IMG/VR virus record: IMGVR_UViG_3300050136_000046
Location: 1 to 29,172 of that record
Source of the DNA: a virus
Direction: 5' to 3' (one strand)
DNA: 29,172 nucleotides
The notes below the pieces were generated by a model. That model was not told the DNA's origin. It ran no database searches and saw only the letters and a list, made by a program, of their open reading frames with translations. Shown here piece by piece: positions 4,884-29,172 of this stretch. The stretch's first letter is position 1, and each line of letters begins with the position of its first letter. The translations under genes were made by a program, and so were the position numbers.

Positions 4884-5138
4884 TCAACTGCCCTTCTTTT
4901 TGTGCTCCTGCGGCTCGCTCGGCACTTCTCCGCCCTTATACTCCACGCGGTCCTGATCTGGGTATTCGCCTAGGTCGTCTTCATCCACCGGAATCAGGCT
5001 TGCCAGCTTTTTTCTGCACCAGAGTTCCAGGCGGAATCTGTGATAAGGGTCAAGAGTGCAACCTACGATAGCCAAGCAGCCGCAAATCACAGCCAGTGTT
5101 CCTAGGTAGATGAGTACTTCATGCCAGAAAGGATTCAT
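4884..5138 (-). CDS. Small single-pass membrane protein, first gene of minus operon
   Basis: This encodes 84 aa. Residues 1-8 (MNPFWHEV) are followed by a hydrophobic segment LIYLGTLAVICGCLAIVGC (residues 9-27), then a polar, acidic tail (DEDDLGEYPDQD) ending in a basic EHKKKGS. It is probably one transmembrane helix with a soluble C-terminal part. A lipobox-like AIVGC is present, but the acidic/aromatic N-terminus is not signal-peptide-like. The ATG at 5138 has no Shine-Dalgarno and sits only 6 bases after the predicted -10, which suggests leaderless translation. As the promoter-proximal gene of the operon it is probably expressed early. Confidence 0.7.
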   Translation of the reverse strand: MNPFWHEVLIYLGTLAVICGCLAIVGCTLDPYHRFRLELWCRKKLASLIPVDEDDLGEYPDQDRVEYKGGEVPSEPQEHKKKGS

Positions 5139-5144
5139 GGATCA

Positions 5145-5174
5145 CTTATACGCCCGAGGTCTATTTCTTGTCAA
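5145..5174 (-). promoter_or_regulatory. Sigma70-type promoter of the minus operon
   Basis: On the minus strand a perfect TTGACA (complement of 5169-5174) is followed after 18 bases by TATAAG (complement of 5145-5150, one mismatch to consensus). The ATG at 5138 begins 6 bases beyond the -10, so the predicted transcript starts at or next to the start codon. The -35 box lies inside the left arm of the dyad at 5169-5205. Confidence 0.65.
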
Positions 5175-5205
5175 GAACTATTACGCGGAATAATAACACT
5201 TGACA
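5169..5205. promoter_or_regulatory. 37-bp dyad, probable operator between divergent promoters
   Basis: The sequence is symmetric about base 5187: TGTCAAG, 3 bases, TATTA, 7 bases (CGCGGAA), TAATA, 3 bases, CTTGACA. All 12 bases of each half-site are exact inverted matches and the 3-base spacers are equal in length. Each outer arm contains a TTGACA -35 box, one per direction, so a protein bound here would block both promoters. The ribbon-helix-helix gene starting at 5234 is the obvious candidate binder; this is inference. Confidence 0.7.
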
Positions 5206-5228
5206 GAATTTTGGTAACATGCCAGTAT
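5200..5228 (+). promoter_or_regulatory. Possible promoter of the plus early operon
   Basis: A perfect TTGACA lies at 5200-5205. With a 17-base spacer the -10 would be CAGTAT (5223-5228), which matches only the A, A and T of consensus, so the call is tentative. If used, the transcript would begin at about the ATG at 5234. An alternative pair, TTGTCA 5168-5173 with AATAAT 5189-5194, has a short 15-base spacer. Confidence 0.35.
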
Positions 5229-5233
5229 TGCGC

Positions 5234-5404
5234 ATGGCCACTACCACCGTAACGACCAAGACAAAAAGAAGCTTCCTCACGGCAATGGTTGACGACGAGA
5301 CCATCGCCTCACTCAAGCGTATCTCCAAGCGGAAAGAAGATCCGGTTAGCAAGCTAATCCGGCTGGCGCTTCGCCAATTCATCGAACGGGAGGGCAAAAT
5401 CTAA
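5234..5404 (+). CDS. Ribbon-helix-helix (CopG/Arc-like) regulator
   Basis: This encodes 56 aa from ATG 5234; an in-frame ATG at 5219 adds MPVLR. The order strand-helix-turn-helix is clear: KRSFLTAMVDDETIASLKRI forms the beta strand and first helix, then SKRKEDPVSKLIRLALRQ forms the turn and second helix. This matches the RHH_1 pattern with a basic N-terminal arm. RHH proteins of this size bind DNA as dimers on short inverted or tandem operators. The 37-bp dyad immediately upstream makes autoregulation and control of the divergent operon likely. No antitoxin partner toxin is adjacent: the next gene (TAATG overlap) is a zinc ribbon. There is no Shine-Dalgarno before 5234. Confidence 0.75.
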   Translation: MATTTVTTKTKRSFLTAMVDDETIASLKRISKRKEDPVSKLIRLALRQFIEREGKI

Positions 5405-9330: not shown

Positions 9331-9542
9331 CCCTGCCCGTGCTCAAACTTCGCATGCTTCCAGAGGGTTTCTGTATGCGCTGCGGTGCACACGGCTACGT
9401 GGACGACAAGACCTGCCTCTGTGGAGGATGCTTGGGAATTTCTCTCGCGGTCTATCACAAGCGCAAGAGTATGAACTTGGCGGAGCAACTGAAACGGAAC
9501 TTCGATGAGTTTGGCCGACTCTGGAGGAAGAAACTTGTCTGA
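9327..9542 (+). CDS. Zinc-ribbon protein (71 aa)
   Basis: The ATG at 9327 overlaps the preceding stop. It contains C-x2-C at Cys16/Cys19 (FCMRCGAHGY) and a cysteine cluster CLCGGC (Cys30, Cys32, Cys35), giving a four-Cys zinc ribbon. The C-terminal half, with KRKSMNLAEQLKRNFDEFGR, is a basic amphipathic helix. This is the third small Cys-knuckle protein in the early region. A role in DNA or RNA binding is likely but not proven. It ends 8 bases past the start of the VRR-NUC gene. Confidence 0.62.
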   Translation: MTLPVLKLRMLPEGFCMRCGAHGYVDDKTCLCGGCLGISLAVYHKRKSMNLAEQLKRNFDEFGRLWRKKLV

Positions 9543-9852
9543 ACTTAGCGAGAGCGCGATCCAGAAACAGATTCTCGACCTGCTCAAGCGCCGGCGAATC
9601 TTTCACTACCGCAACAATACGGGCGGCGCAAAGCTCAAAGGCCACTACGTGCACTTCGGCAGAATCGGAGCACCCGATGTCATCTGCGTAATAAACGGCA
9701 AATATGTGGGCATCGAAGTCAAGAACACCAAAGGCGAACTCTCGCGCAAGCAGGTGGAATTTCGTGCAGAGCTTGAGAAGGCTGGAGGCATTTATCTTTT
9801 AGTGCGCAGTGCAATGGAACTGGATCAAGAGCTTATCAGGAGGTTTCTATGA
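9535..9852 (+). CDS. VRR-NUC domain nuclease (Holliday-junction-resolvase-like)
   Basis: This encodes 105 aa from TTG 9535, chosen because GGAGGAAGAAAC precedes it; ATG 9505 has no ribosome site. It is a stand-alone VRR-NUC: SESAIQKQILDLLKRR helix, FHYRNNTGGAKL, then the PD-(D/E)XK set GAPDVICV with Asp48, GIEVKNTKGELS with Glu61 and Lys63, RKQVEF with Gln73, and GGIYLLVRS. Members of this family from phages cleave branched DNA. With terminase just downstream, it may clear branches before packaging or resolve recombination intermediates made by ERF/YqaJ. It ends in an ATGA overlap. Confidence 0.85.
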   Translation: MSELSESAIQKQILDLLKRRRIFHYRNNTGGAKLKGHYVHFGRIGAPDVICVINGKYVGIEVKNTKGELSRKQVEFRAELEKAGGIYLLVRSAMELDQELIRRFL

Positions 9853-10070
9853 TTACGTCGCAATGGAATCCGCAACTCTGCGAAGAGACGCTGTTGCTTT
9901 TTGAGCGCCTGCGCAAAAAGAAGGAAGATGAATTCGACGCGCTGATTTGCGAAGCGAGCTGCGGTGGTGCGCGTAAAGTGACCGCCCTCGAACGCAAGCT
10001 GATGAAGCTCTCGCCCCGAACGCGTTACCGCATCCTATTTAATTCGTACAAAAGGAGAAATCGCCGATGA
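9849..10070 (+). CDS. Hypothetical basic protein (73 aa)
   Basis: The ATG at 9849 overlaps the VRR-NUC stop and has AGGAGG upstream. The sequence is helical: CEETLLLFERLRKKKEDEFD, then GGARKVTALERKLMKLSPRT, ending in RYRILFNSYKRRNRR. It has a high content of Lys and Arg, especially at the end. No domain was recognised. It could bind DNA. An ATGA overlap with the next small ORF supports translation. Confidence 0.6.
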   Translation: MITSQWNPQLCEETLLLFERLRKKKEDEFDALICEASCGGARKVTALERKLMKLSPRTRYRILFNSYKRRNRR

Positions 10071-16985: not shown

Positions 16986-17767
16986 TCCGGAAAATTTTCC
17001 TACTCGCGTTCGTCTTGCTGACGTTGTGCAAAGTTAATTTCGCGCAAACGAGTAGCACTGCCTATCCCGGTTTCTCTTTCCCGAACAGCGTCCCGCTTCC
17101 CAACGTAAAATTTATCAGTGGTTACGCTAACGTAGTCACCACTGGAAACGTTGACCTTTACACTGTTCCAGCAAACAGAAAAGCCTTTGTGTTTGGTATC
17201 TACTGCTATAACTATAGCGGCTCAACCTCCAGCAACTACGCGGAAACGAAAATCAGCGGAACTTATTACCGGATAAGCGCAACGGGCACGAACACAAACT
17301 TGTCCGTTAATAATATGAACCCAGCGGCCCCGATGGTTCTCCCAGCAGGGCAAACCCTTTCCATGAATAATACTCAACAGCCTCTTAACTGTTGGGCGCA
17401 AATTGCGGAATTCGACGCCACGTCAAGTCTGCAAAGTATTTTTCTCACTAGCTTCGCTGCTTCGGATAACACTATTTATACCGTCACCACCGGAAAAACT
17501 GCTGTGGCTGCTGGAGGAACCGGGGTTGGGTTTTCTAACTTTGGGTATGCGACAAGTAGCGCAGCAACGATCCACTGGAATTACGTGGCGTCTGGCGGCA
17601 CGGCGGGAGCTACAAATCAGGCTTCGGCAGCAACGGCAGTAGCTTCGGGTGGTGCAAATTCAAGTCAAAGTCCCGGCACAATGAACAGCGGGGACTTTGT
17701 TAGCATTAACACAAGTATCAGTACGGCGGGCGCTCAGCTTGCCTGGGTCACGGTGATCGAACAGTGA
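16982..17767 (+). CDS. Secreted beta-rich hypothetical protein (261 aa)
   Basis: The ATG at 16982 overlaps the preceding stop. The signal peptide is MIRKIFLLAFVLLTLCKVNF followed by AQ. The mature protein is Ser/Thr/Asn/Ala-rich beta structure: VVTTGNVDLYTVPANRKAFV, then FGIYCYNYSGSTSSNYAETK, TYYRISATGTNTNLSVNNMN and MVLPAGQTLSMNNTQQP. The pattern 'g...lytvP.nrka.v.....n' matches phage and bacteriophage-like baseplate or fibre knobs. The C-terminus (FVSINTSISTAGAQLAWVTV) ends in a strand. Role probably structural or surface-associated. Ends in a GTGA overlap. Confidence 0.62.
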   Translation: MIRKIFLLAFVLLTLCKVNFAQTSSTAYPGFSFPNSVPLPNVKFISGYANVVTTGNVDLYTVPANRKAFVFGIYCYNYSGSTSSNYAETKISGTYYRISATGTNTNLSVNNMNPAAPMVLPAGQTLSMNNTQQPLNCWAQIAEFDATSSLQSIFLTSFAASDNTIYTVTTGKTAVAAGGTGVGFSNFGYATSSAATIHWNYVASGGTAGATNQASAATAVASGGANSSQSPGTMNSGDFVSINTSISTAGAQLAWVTVIEQ

Positions 17768-20610
17768 AAAAGCTCTTAGTCCTCACATTCATCCTGGCAG
17801 TGATTCCCGTGCCCAAATTACCCCAAAGCCCTTCTTACATCGCGCGCAGTTTGTGGCGGGATGTGTTTTTTCTTTCGCATTACATGGCTCCGCCATCTCC
17901 GCTTCCGAATGTATATATCGCCCAAGTCGCGGCTGGCGGAAATACGGGCGCGGATTGCGCTGATGCTCTCGTTTACACGTACTTCAACACTTCGGGGAAT
18001 TGGAGTTCCTCGGGGCCGATCGGTCCGAGCACCAACGTGCATCTCTGCGGCACCATCACCGGGACGAACACCAGCAACGTGAACATTTTGACCACGCATG
18101 GAAATGGGACGAGTGGAAACCCGATCACGATTCTGTTCGAGACTGGCGCAATCGTGCAGTCGCCGGCGTGCCCGGGCGGCTCTGGGGGTAGCAACGCGTG
18201 CATTCTGGCTCCGAATTCCTACATCACCATAAATGGTGGAACGAACGGAACCGTACAGGCCATGCTCAATGGTGATTCGGGGGCGACGAATTGCCTCTCG
18301 GGAACCTGCACGATTCAACTGGCGCTGACGACCGGCGTAGCCGTCACCGGAACGAACGATACAGTAGAGAATCTGACCGTGACGCACATGTGTATGCACA
18401 CGTTCCAGGACAACGACGCCGGATTCTACCAGGGGAACTGCAACGGGATTTACGCTTCCAACACGAACGCGCTGATGACGCAGAACACGGTGGATAACGC
18501 CTCGACCGCGATAGCCGGGGGGAACAGCAGCCAAGAGTTTTCCTATAATACCTTGACCTATTGCAACCGTTGTATCGTGGTCGGAACGACCACGAGCGTC
18601 TATACCGGAGACAAGTTCCACAACAATGACATCAGCCAGCTTTACACTTGGGACGACGGCACGGGGAACAATTACCACCACAACGGCATCATGTTTGAAA
18701 TAGTCGGGTCAGGCGGACAGTTCATCGCGCCGCAGGTCTACGACAACTATTTTCACGGGCTGTGGTCGAACGACAACATCTACGGGTTTACGCACATAAC
18801 CAGCGAGGTTTTCCTGGATACGAATGGCGAGCCGGACTCAGTTCCGAATGCCTACATCGTTCGCAATATCTTTGAACTGGATGTGTCGAACTGCGTTGTG
18901 TCCGGCGCGGGAACCTGTCCCGGCGGTGTGGGACACCCACTGAATTACCCAGGTGACGGGTTCGTGAACGTGGGTGGGTGCAACGCGGCGGGTTGTTCTC
19001 CGCCGAACCAGTCTCTAATAGCGAACAACACAATGATCGGGCCGTCTGGAGCCGGGTGTTGGTCCGGCGGTGATTTTTCAAACAACATCAGCATCGAAAA
19101 CAATCTTTGCGCGACGACCAGCGGAGCGATCTTAGCCTGGCCGAGTTCACTACCTTTCCCTGGCAGCGGCAGCGGGTTAATTGACTACAACCTGTACCCC
19201 GGAGTGCCGACGAGCAACGCTTTTGCCGAACCTACCACCACCTGCCCGCCCGCTTCGTGCGGAAACCCCTATGCCAACATCAATAGCTGGACAGCTTGGA
19301 GCAGCGGCTCGCTGCTTCTCGATCGACACTGCACTCCGACAGGGAACACGCCGGGGACGGGGAATAGTTGCAACCCAACCTTGGCGGCCGCAGCTCTTAC
19401 TTCGAGCTACTACCTGGGAACGGGCTCAGTGGCGATTGGTGCCGCAGTCAATCTGACGACTGCGTGGTGCACCACCATCCCGGCTCTTTGCACGGGTGCG
19501 CCGTCCACCTTTGGCAGAGGCGGGGCCAATGACGGCGTGGCGCTTCCTTCGGGGACGACAGCCTGGGACACGGGAGCCCGCCCATATGCCGCTTCAGGGA
19601 GTCCATCGACCACGTTCAGTCCTACCAACTTGTCATTCGGAAATCAGGTGCAAGGAACGTCAAGCGCATCACAGACTGTTACGCTGACCAATAGCGGAAC
19701 GGCAAATCTGGTCATCACAACCATCGCAGCCGCGAATACGGACTATTCTCTTAGCAGCAGCCCATCCTGCCTTTCAGGGTGCACCGTTTCGGCGGCCGGA
19801 ACCGTAGTCGTCACGGTTACTTTTACTCCATCCGTGCTTGGCGCTGATAACGGTAGTATCTCATTCACGGATAATGCAGCCGGAAGTCCCCAGTCGGTAA
19901 CACTTGCCGGCACGGGAATCGCTGCCAACAATGTCGTGGTGATCAACGTAGCTCCTTGCGCTAATCAAGCGTTGAGCGGCACCTGCACGATTGGGACGAC
20001 CACCGGCGGCACTGAGCTCATCATGGACATCACTTTCAACGATGGCTCTGGTGCCTGCGTAGTGTCGAGCGTCACCGACAATAAATCGAATACTTGGGTG
20101 CAGGTACCTAACGCTAGGGCCACCGACGCGACACCCAACGATGCCTCCGACATCTGGCACACGGACAGTCCTGTGTTTTTGGTCTCGACCGTGACGATTA
20201 ACACCACACCCTCGACCGGATGCTCTGCCGAGGAAGTATTTTACGAAGTGGCCGGGGTGAACGCGCTCGATAATGGCACGCACGCGAACAGCCAGTCCAC
20301 ATCTACCACGCCTTCCGGGGCGCCTGTCACCACGACTGCGAACAACGAGTTCGTGAACTCCATCCTGAACTATCAAGGCTCAGTAACCGGAATTTTCAGC
20401 GGGAACATTTTCACCAATGATTCAACCTTGCAAGGCAATGGATGGGCGCACTATATTCAATCAGCCACCGGAACGCGCACCGCTCAATGGCAGTCCAGCG
20501 CAACCGGAACCTCGGCCTCGAGTACCGCGGCATTCAAGCTTGGTGGCAGCCCCGTGACGACTGGCCCGGTCGCGCCCACACTGGGAATGCCAACGGTTGT
20601 GCCACATTAA
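17764..20610 (+). CDS. Secreted beta-helix protein with choice-of-anchor-D (ASH) domain
   Basis: This encodes 948 aa from GTG 17764 with a signal-like start MKKLLVLTFILAVIPVPK. Residues 50-510 show parallel beta-helix features, with repeated N/G/T turns (ITINGGTNGTVQAMLNG, GTNDTVENLTVTHMCMHTFQ, NGIYASNTNALMTQNTVDNA, SYNTLTYCNRCIVVG). This fold is common in carbohydrate-degrading tail spikes and bacterial secreted enzymes. Residues 613-720 are an ASH/HYDIN domain (TFSPTNLSFGNQVQGTSSAS, SGTVTLTNSGTANL-like repeats, then GSISFTDNAAGSPQSVTL). This kind of domain is abundant in Acidobacteria. The last 230 residues contain CVVSSVTDNKSNTWVQV, a module I know only from secreted bacterial proteins. 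It could be a spike depolymerase or an exported host-like protein; no catalytic residues identified. Confidence 0.65.
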   Translation: MKKLLVLTFILAVIPVPKLPQSPSYIARSLWRDVFFLSHYMAPPSPLPNVYIAQVAAGGNTGADCADALVYTYFNTSGNWSSSGPIGPSTNVHLCGTITGTNTSNVNILTTHGNGTSGNPITILFETGAIVQSPACPGGSGGSNACILAPNSYITINGGTNGTVQAMLNGDSGATNCLSGTCTIQLALTTGVAVTGTNDTVENLTVTHMCMHTFQDNDAGFYQGNCNGIYASNTNALMTQNTVDNASTAIAGGNSSQEFSYNTLTYCNRCIVVGTTTSVYTGDKFHNNDISQLYTWDDGTGNNYHHNGIMFEIVGSGGQFIAPQVYDNYFHGLWSNDNIYGFTHITSEVFLDTNGEPDSVPNAYIVRNIFELDVSNCVVSGAGTCPGGVGHPLNYPGDGFVNVGGCNAAGCSPPNQSLIANNTMIGPSGAGCWSGGDFSNNISIENNLCATTSGAILAWPSSLPFPGSGSGLIDYNLYPGVPTSNAFAEPTTTCPPASCGNPYANINSWTAWSSGSLLLDRHCTPTGNTPGTGNSCNPTLAAAALTSSYYLGTGSVAIGAAVNLTTAWCTTIPALCTGAPSTFGRGGANDGVALPSGTTAWDTGARPYAASGSPSTTFSPTNLSFGNQVQGTSSASQTVTLTNSGTANLVITTIAAANTDYSLSSSPSCLSGCTVSAAGTVVVTVTFTPSVLGADNGSISFTDNAAGSPQSVTLAGTGIAANNVVVINVAPCANQALSGTCTIGTTTGGTELIMDITFNDGSGACVVSSVTDNKSNTWVQVPNARATDATPNDASDIWHTDSPVFLVSTVTINTTPSTGCSAEEVFYEVAGVNALDNGTHANSQSTSTTPSGAPVTTTANNEFVNSILNYQGSVTGIFSGNIFTNDSTLQGNGWAHYIQSATGTRTAQWQSSATGTSASSTAAFKLGGSPVTTGPVAPTLGMPTVVPH

Positions 20611-27951: not shown

Positions 27952-29172
27952 ATGGGTGTCGTAGCCAATCCCGTAGGCGCCCTCGCAGACCTGGCTTCAG
28001 GCACAGCCCAAGATGTCGTTGGCGCGCGCGATGAAGGCCAAGCTCCTCCGAAACCCGTCGCACCAAAACCCACGCAGACGATGCTCGCGCCCAATGGACA
28101 ATCTGGAGAGATCCCCGTCGAGCACGTTGACGATGCACTGAAAGCGGGATTCAAGCATGGAACGGTAATGGTATCGCCCGATGGGAAGGAAGGTACTGTT
28201 CCTGCCGAGCGCGCCGCGGATGCCGCGAAAGCTGGCTTCAAGTCCAAGCAGCCTGCACCGACGAGATATAACTCCAACCCGAGCTTTGCGAATTACGCGC
28301 CGCCCGATTCTCCCTTGCGCAACGTACCGGAGCCTCATCCCGAGCAGAACCAGATTGTTGAGCCCGCCAAGCACGAGACCATTACCGGATTGGGTCGCGC
28401 AGCTTTGGGCGCAGTTCCATTCGCCATGGGCGGTGAGGGCGAGCTTGCCGAAGCTCCCGCGATGGAAATGCCTAGCATGGGCGCCGCGAAGCCGATCCTA
28501 ACTGCGCCTATCCGTCTCGCGGCACGCACCGCTGAGCGCGCGGTCAACGATATACCGATCCTGAATACTGCCAGGGCTGCTAAGGGCTTGATGAGCCCAG
28601 CCGACGAAGCCGCTGGCATGAGAATCAAAATTCCCGGCCGGGACGTTGGGCTTGGCACTGCTTCGCCGCCCATGACGCTTCCGCAGGACGCATTCGATAC
28701 GAGTGCAGCAGAGAAGGCCGTGACGCCAATTCAGGGCGTAGGAACCCCTGCGCCTCCGGGTAATCCCGTGCGACGTGTGCCCGGCGACATTCCCCGCGAA
28801 GCGGTAGCTCAGCCGCCTGCCATGCGTGTGCCAGCTATCGCGCAGCAAACAGGAACGTCTCAACTCCCTGGCGGTGGTGTGATTCAGCGGCCAGCAATGA
28901 TGCTCCCGCCGGCTCCGGAAGCTCCCGCCGCAGCCGCTCCTGCAATGTCCATCCCTGAATCCGCACCGGTTGAAGTAACACCCCAAGGCCCACCGCTGCC
29001 GAATCCCGTTCGACGTGTGCCTGGCGACATCCCCCGCGAGGCGATCGCTCAGCCGCCTGCCATGCGCGTGCCAGCTATCGCGCAGCAAACAGGAACGTCT
29101 CAACTCCCTGGCGGTGGTGTGATTCAACGGCCAGCGATGATGCTCCCGCCGGCTCCGGAAGCTCCCGCCGCA
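27952..29172 (+). CDS. Partial large protein with internal repeats, open at window end
   Basis: The ATG at 27952 follows the TAA of the previous gene. The frame is open for 407 codons to the last base. Residues 44-71 and 73-100 are two copies of a 29-residue motif: MLAPNGQSGEIPVEHVDDAL and MVSPDGKEGTVPAERAADAA, each ending KAGFK. I know this 'pdG..g.vP...v..al..Gf' motif from large phage virion proteins. Residues 150-240 are Ala-rich and helical (ETITGLGRAALGAVPFAMGG, PIRLAARTAERAVNDIPILN). Residues 271-327 and 351-407 are a near-identical 57-residue Pro/Ala-rich repeat. The C-terminus, where a catalytic domain would be expected in such proteins, is missing. Confidence 0.65.
   Translation, partial: MGVVANPVGALADLASGTAQDVVGARDEGQAPPKPVAPKPTQTMLAPNGQSGEIPVEHVDDALKAGFKHGTVMVSPDGKEGTVPAERAADAAKAGFKSKQPAPTRYNSNPSFANYAPPDSPLRNVPEPHPEQNQIVEPAKHETITGLGRAALGAVPFAMGGEGELAEAPAMEMPSMGAAKPILTAPIRLAARTAERAVNDIPILNTARAAKGLMSPADEAAGMRIKIPGRDVGLGTASPPMTLPQDAFDTSAAEKAVTPIQGVGTPAPPGNPVRRVPGDIPREAVAQPPAMRVPAIAQQTGTSQLPGGGVIQRPAMMLPPAPEAPAAAAPAMSIPESAPVEVTPQGPPLPNPVRRVPGDIPREAIAQPPAMRVPAIAQQTGTSQLPGGGVIQRPAMMLPPAPEAPAA
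28762..28932 (+). repeat. Repeat copy 1 of a 171-bp coding repeat
   Basis: This is one of two copies, 240 bp apart (start to start), of a segment encoding NPVRRVPGDIPREAVAQPPA through LPPAPEAPAA. Only about nine of 171 bases differ from the second copy. All but one are synonymous; the exception is a Val-to-Ile exchange. Confidence 0.8.
29002..29172 (+). repeat. Repeat copy 2, running to the window end
   Basis: This is the second copy of the repeat at 28762-28932; it runs to the final base of the window. Further copies may lie beyond, and repeats of this length are a common reason for a contig to stop. Confidence 0.8.

Follow-up and report, generated by a model that had tools for sequence, protein, structure and literature searches.

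Does the 37-bp dyad in the divergent gap of this viral DNA mark the operator of the small ribbon-helix-helix (RHH) protein encoded beside it, or does it reflect two promoters that face away from each other? A preliminary description of the locus took the whole dyad as the RHH operator and as the early genetic switch of the element. Here, we examine the gap, its predicted promoters, the RHH protein and related sites in IMG/VR.

Gene organization of the window

The window, by which we mean the whole stretch of DNA analysed, is an entire virus record from IMG/VR, 29,172 bases long. Open-frame reading places leftward genes between 5138 and ~2097 and rightward genes from 5234 onward to the window end, making 5139–5233 the sole divergent gap. 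A 56-aa RHH protein is encoded first in the rightward operon, followed by an HNH-type protein, ERF, YqaJ, a protein resembling VRR-NUC (E 1.8e-4, narrowly missing the Pfam cut-off), the large terminase and genes that are presumably structural. The leftward operon starts with the gene for an 84-aa protein whose N-terminal stretch is hydrophobic, and also encodes a 49-aa protein rich in Cys, a PHROG 631 protein and one resembling methyltransferases. The scan of window proteins, which covered part of the open frames of a record that may be a fragment, revealed neither an integrase nor a CI-like/Cro-like repressor pair.

Within a 948-aa ORF (17764–20610), the section at window positions 19600–20300 resembles choice-of-anchor D / ASPM-Hydin domains, which are frequent in Acidobacteriota and provide a weak host hint. 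Bacterial YqaJ relatives gave no host assignment, the closest being mostly proteobacterial prophages at ≤57% identity. The last ORF (28700–29172) repeats a Pro/Ala-rich unit of ~39 aa, PPMRVPAIAQQTGTSQLPGGGVIQRPAMMLPPAPEAPAA, and runs past the contig end, which may lie within a repeat.

The dyad and the predicted divergent promoters

The features of the divergent gap and of the two genes that flank it are listed below by position.

4884..5138, minus strand: 84-aa protein encoded by the gene that opens the leftward operon; its N-terminal stretch is hydrophobic, and its ATG falls at the predicted transcription start
5145..5150, minus strand: putative −10 box TATAAG of the leftward promoter, 18-bp spacer
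5169..5174, minus strand: −35 box TTGACA of the leftward promoter, forming the left outer arm with G5175
5169..5205, no strand: imperfect 37-bp dyad, centre 5187, TGTCAAG-AAC-TATTA-CGCGGAA-TAATA-ACA-CTTGACA
5179..5195, no strand: inner inverted repeat TATTA-N7-TAATA, a candidate RHH site or upstream promoter DNA
5200..5205, plus strand: −35 box TTGACA of the rightward promoter, forming the right outer arm with C5199
5220..5228, plus strand: putative extended −10-like element TGcCAGTAT of the rightward promoter, 17-bp spacer, weak hexamer (3/6)
5234..5404, plus strand: 56-aa RHH protein, Arc-like by profile; ATG at the predicted transcription start

The preliminary description had reported a dyad with perfect halves. 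Its position, sequence, centre at 5187 and 12 matches per half were all recovered, but the halves are imperfect, with 12 of 15 positions matched in each (13/18 with one core pair counted). It is nevertheless the top-scoring 37-bp palindrome of the window (runner-up 12/18), while a few palindromes of other lengths elsewhere in the window reach similar scores. As 37-mers lying wholly within the divergent gap make up only 0.2% of the total, the position of the dyad is unlikely to be due to chance. The same description correctly placed a TTGACA box within each outer arm and the RHH gene 29 bases beyond the dyad edge (ATG at 5234). TTGACA has five copies in the window, including the two dyad arms, where 14.5 would be expected, and the expectation for outward TGTCAA...TTGACA pairs within 33 bp is 0.07 per window. 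Across positions 1–29172, the hexamer stands at about one-third of expectation, as if stray −35 boxes had been selected against.

Outward-facing −35 and −10 boxes with spacers of 16–18 bp, lying between divergent genes, constitute a divergent sigma-70 layout, and the gap contains this arrangement as TTGACA-17-CAGTAT (with a TG extension) on one side and TTGACA-18-TATAAG on the other, both being predicted promoters. The two TTGACA boxes are 25 bp apart, about 96 bp separate the predicted transcription starts, and the rightward −10, CAGTAT, is weak. A generic promoter scan reported neither predicted promoter, as both fall short of its hexamer thresholds, and returned four promoter-like sites where 5.6 were expected by chance. 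An alternative leftward promoter, with the inner arm TATTAT (5195–5190) as −10 and TTACCA (5217–5212) as −35, matches at 9/12 positions and is possible, but sites of such quality are no commoner than chance. Together, the boxes, the candidate −10 elements and the divergent genes support the earlier proposal that two divergent promoters lie in the gap with their predicted −35 boxes in the outer arms.

Predicted leaderless starts

In both directions, the first ATG lies 6–7 nt past the −10-like box, where transcription would start, and neither is preceded by a good Shine–Dalgarno sequence. Predicted Shine–Dalgarno pairing amounts to +0.9 kcal/mol for the RHH gene and a weak −2.4 kcal/mol for the 84-aa gene, compared with about −5 to −12 kcal/mol for most other genes. 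Leaderless expression of both first genes would be the simplest reading of this arrangement. We also considered whether perfect divergent promoter pairs are generally marked by leaderless starts, but the apparent peak mostly disappeared once redundant contigs were clustered (10.5% versus 7.1%, among the matches listed).

The 56-aa RHH protein

The 56-aa protein matches the Pfam RHH_1 profile (PF01402) at 1e-5 with 25.7 bits, above the cut-off of 20.5, which places it in the fold family, and its best PHROG match is PHROG 3180, 'Arc-like repressor' (5.3e-6). An AlphaFold model built without an alignment has a mean pLDDT of 71 and contains two main helices (21–32 and 37–53) and no strand; a Foldseek search with this model found no structure match in the PDB. 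Given this pLDDT and the lack of a PDB match, the RHH assignment rests on sequence profiles. Searches of IMG/VR, phage and plasmid collections and the PDB returned no informative diverged homologues. The protein is probably a repressor, and autoregulation at the gap appears likely.

Relatives of the window

The full dyad pattern is present in one other IMG/VR contig, L002, which is ~99% identical to the window and, because its control region carries no difference at all, is uninformative on conservation of the inner repeat. Elsewhere, ~625 bp in L002 (10021–11090) replace ~41 bp of the window (9505–10001) and carry two small ORFs of 100 and 76 aa; just upstream of this length difference, the VRR-NUC-like protein is clearly diverged. 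The difference is a local gene exchange between close phages. Terminase-based searches for relatives recovered only that contig in IMG/VR and yielded nothing from genomes.

A more distant relative, L006 (ERF 66%, YqaJ 65%), carries an RHH gene at 774, preceded by a TTGTCAAG-N8-CTTGACAA dyad. Its −35-to-ATG interval (739 to 774) nearly equals that of the window (5200 to 5234), and its RHH gene likewise has no Shine–Dalgarno sequence and only a weak −10. Its arms, however, are spaced 15 bp apart compared with 30 bp in the window, and BLASTP produced no alignment between the two RHH proteins. Between the −35 and −10 of the promoter of its RHH gene, L006 also contains a perfect AATATATT-N3-AATATATT repeat (744–762), which may be a candidate RHH operator of that contig. 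Directly after the RHH gene, a 242-aa ORF (943–1671) includes a long GCTGCG-type repeat run rich in Ala, Trp, Gly and Asp. No RHH match was found in L007 (ERF 61%).

Outward TTGTCAA/TTGACA pairs were found ten times across 79 YqaJ relatives, compared with 1.6 expected; they lie in eight loci, some of which are near-copies. In the seven loci besides L006, a small gene adjoins the pair, and all four of the proteins scanned match P22_Cro or YdaS. As such pairs lie beside Cro/YdaS-like genes or a different RHH gene, the arms accompany divergent promoters whatever the regulator.

Recurrence of the arms in IMG/VR

A search of IMG/VR for the arms alone (TGTCAAG-N23-CTTGACA) matched at least 119 stretches, at least 110 of them distinct. 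Of 110 distinct sites among the matches listed, 53 have −10-like boxes on both flanks, compared with 3.9% of random positions. The genes flanking these 53 two-sided sites are varied, among the matches listed, but the sites are not independent, because several of the flanking genes belong to recurring families. In the 50 records searched with the RHH_1 profile, drawn from the 53 among the matches listed, no RHH gene lies beside the arms; RHH_1 matches were present in two of the 50, one at 29.3–29.6 kb, ~16 kb off the dyad, and the other sub-threshold and ~4 kb off. Symmetry of at least 13/18, as in the window dyad, is reached by 17 of the 110 among the matches listed, many of the 17 being more A+T-rich.

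In a second scan, divergent promoter pairs that were perfect and had gaps of 6–36 bp were sought, and at least 110 sites in at least 38 clusters were identified. Among the matches listed, inner symmetry in these pairs is ~40% above the base-composition expectation, and the level observed in the window is equalled in 5 of 27 independent clusters with gaps ≥20 bp. Most of the dyad therefore has the look of back-to-back promoters.

Operator or promoter DNA

With the arms attributed to the −35 boxes, the remaining candidate operator is the inner TATTA-N7-TAATA only. When the −35 boxes and their flanking C are excluded, 6 of 11 pairs in the inner 23 bases are symmetric, five of them in a row, and shuffling reproduces both features in 0.4% of cases (P about 0.004). 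This repeat would suit an RHH site, or it may be upstream promoter DNA.

The interpretation that we favour, and consider reasonably likely, is a phage early control region in which back-to-back sigma-70-type promoters, both leaderless, are combined with a 56-aa Arc-like RHH autorepressor acting in the gap. Face-out promoters of this type would start both early operons, with each transcript predicted to begin at or near its ATG. Less surely, the RHH protein would bind in the gap, most plausibly at the inner repeat, and the bound protein would then block RNA polymerase at one or both promoters, the outcome being negative feedback on two early operons. One regulator bound in the gap could control both. 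Divergent promoters beside a small probable-repressor gene are a common phage control-region layout.

We regard it as unlikely that the gap contains promoters only, the inner symmetry being chance or A+T-rich upstream DNA contacted by the polymerase and the RHH protein acting elsewhere in the phage or host genome. The A+T-rich inner arms are compatible with such an arrangement, as are the equal inner symmetry of those 5 of 27 independent pairs (gaps ≥20 bp, among the matches listed) and the identity of the sole close relative at the inner arms, which leaves no conservation signal; however, base composition is a poor explanation of the inner-arm symmetry at the P value given above, and phage RHH genes adjoining divergent control regions are commonly autoregulated, as in Arc, RelB and similar proteins. 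The proposal that the whole 37-bp dyad is the operator, with RHH dimers on the arms covering both −35 boxes to form a switch, appears more doubtful still. The adjacent RHH gene agrees with it, the L006 TTGTCAAG/CTTGACAA dyad likewise adjoins an RHH gene, and TTGTCA would fit the [A/T]TGT[A/C]A hexads that RelB, an E. coli RHH antitoxin, reads over its own promoter (PMC2812701). RelB, however, needs closely packed half-sites at fixed spacing, its operator relO being four such hexads at about −10 to +20 (PMC2812701), whereas 23 bp separate the TTGACA-like arms of the window and no toxin gene could be recognised downstream. The arms also match the −35 consensus of sigma-70 and are found again next to unrelated genes and Cro-like regulators, and the two RHH-bearing relatives differ in arm spacing (30 versus 15 bp) and carry RHH proteins that do not align. 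It is highly improbable that the −35 boxes serve as half-sites of a composite operator at which a single RHH repressor, in direct competition with sigma factor, switches both leaderless early operons. Describing the locus as the early genetic switch is also unproven: no integrase or CI-like repressor turned up in the scanned window proteins, and the gap may do no more than start transcription of both early operons under negative feedback.

Comparison with known control regions

Like P22 Arc (PHROG 3180), the window phage encodes a small RHH protein whose start codon adjoins the control region; unlike Arc, it has only a candidate operator, and the N-terminal DNA-contact strand is unformed in the single-chain model. 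Face-out promoters, a short shared gap and a small DNA-binding regulator gene are shared with lambda/P22-type control regions, and relatives of the window carry a P22_Cro-family gene at this place, whereas the regulator here is an RHH protein with no CI-like partner among the proteins scanned and the two transcripts seem to be leaderless. In E. coli and Salmonella, bidirectional promoters are pseudo-symmetric sites at which RNA polymerase is engaged in one of two orientations (PMC12825309, PMC10268837). The window resembles them in the association of DNA symmetry with two-way transcription and differs in having two full predicted promoters, with starts about 96 bp apart.

These results indicate that two back-to-back −35 boxes can largely account for a striking dyad next to a repressor gene. 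If the RHH step is true, the locus would be one more compact Arc-like control region, here in an uncultured phage and with leaderless early transcripts on both sides.
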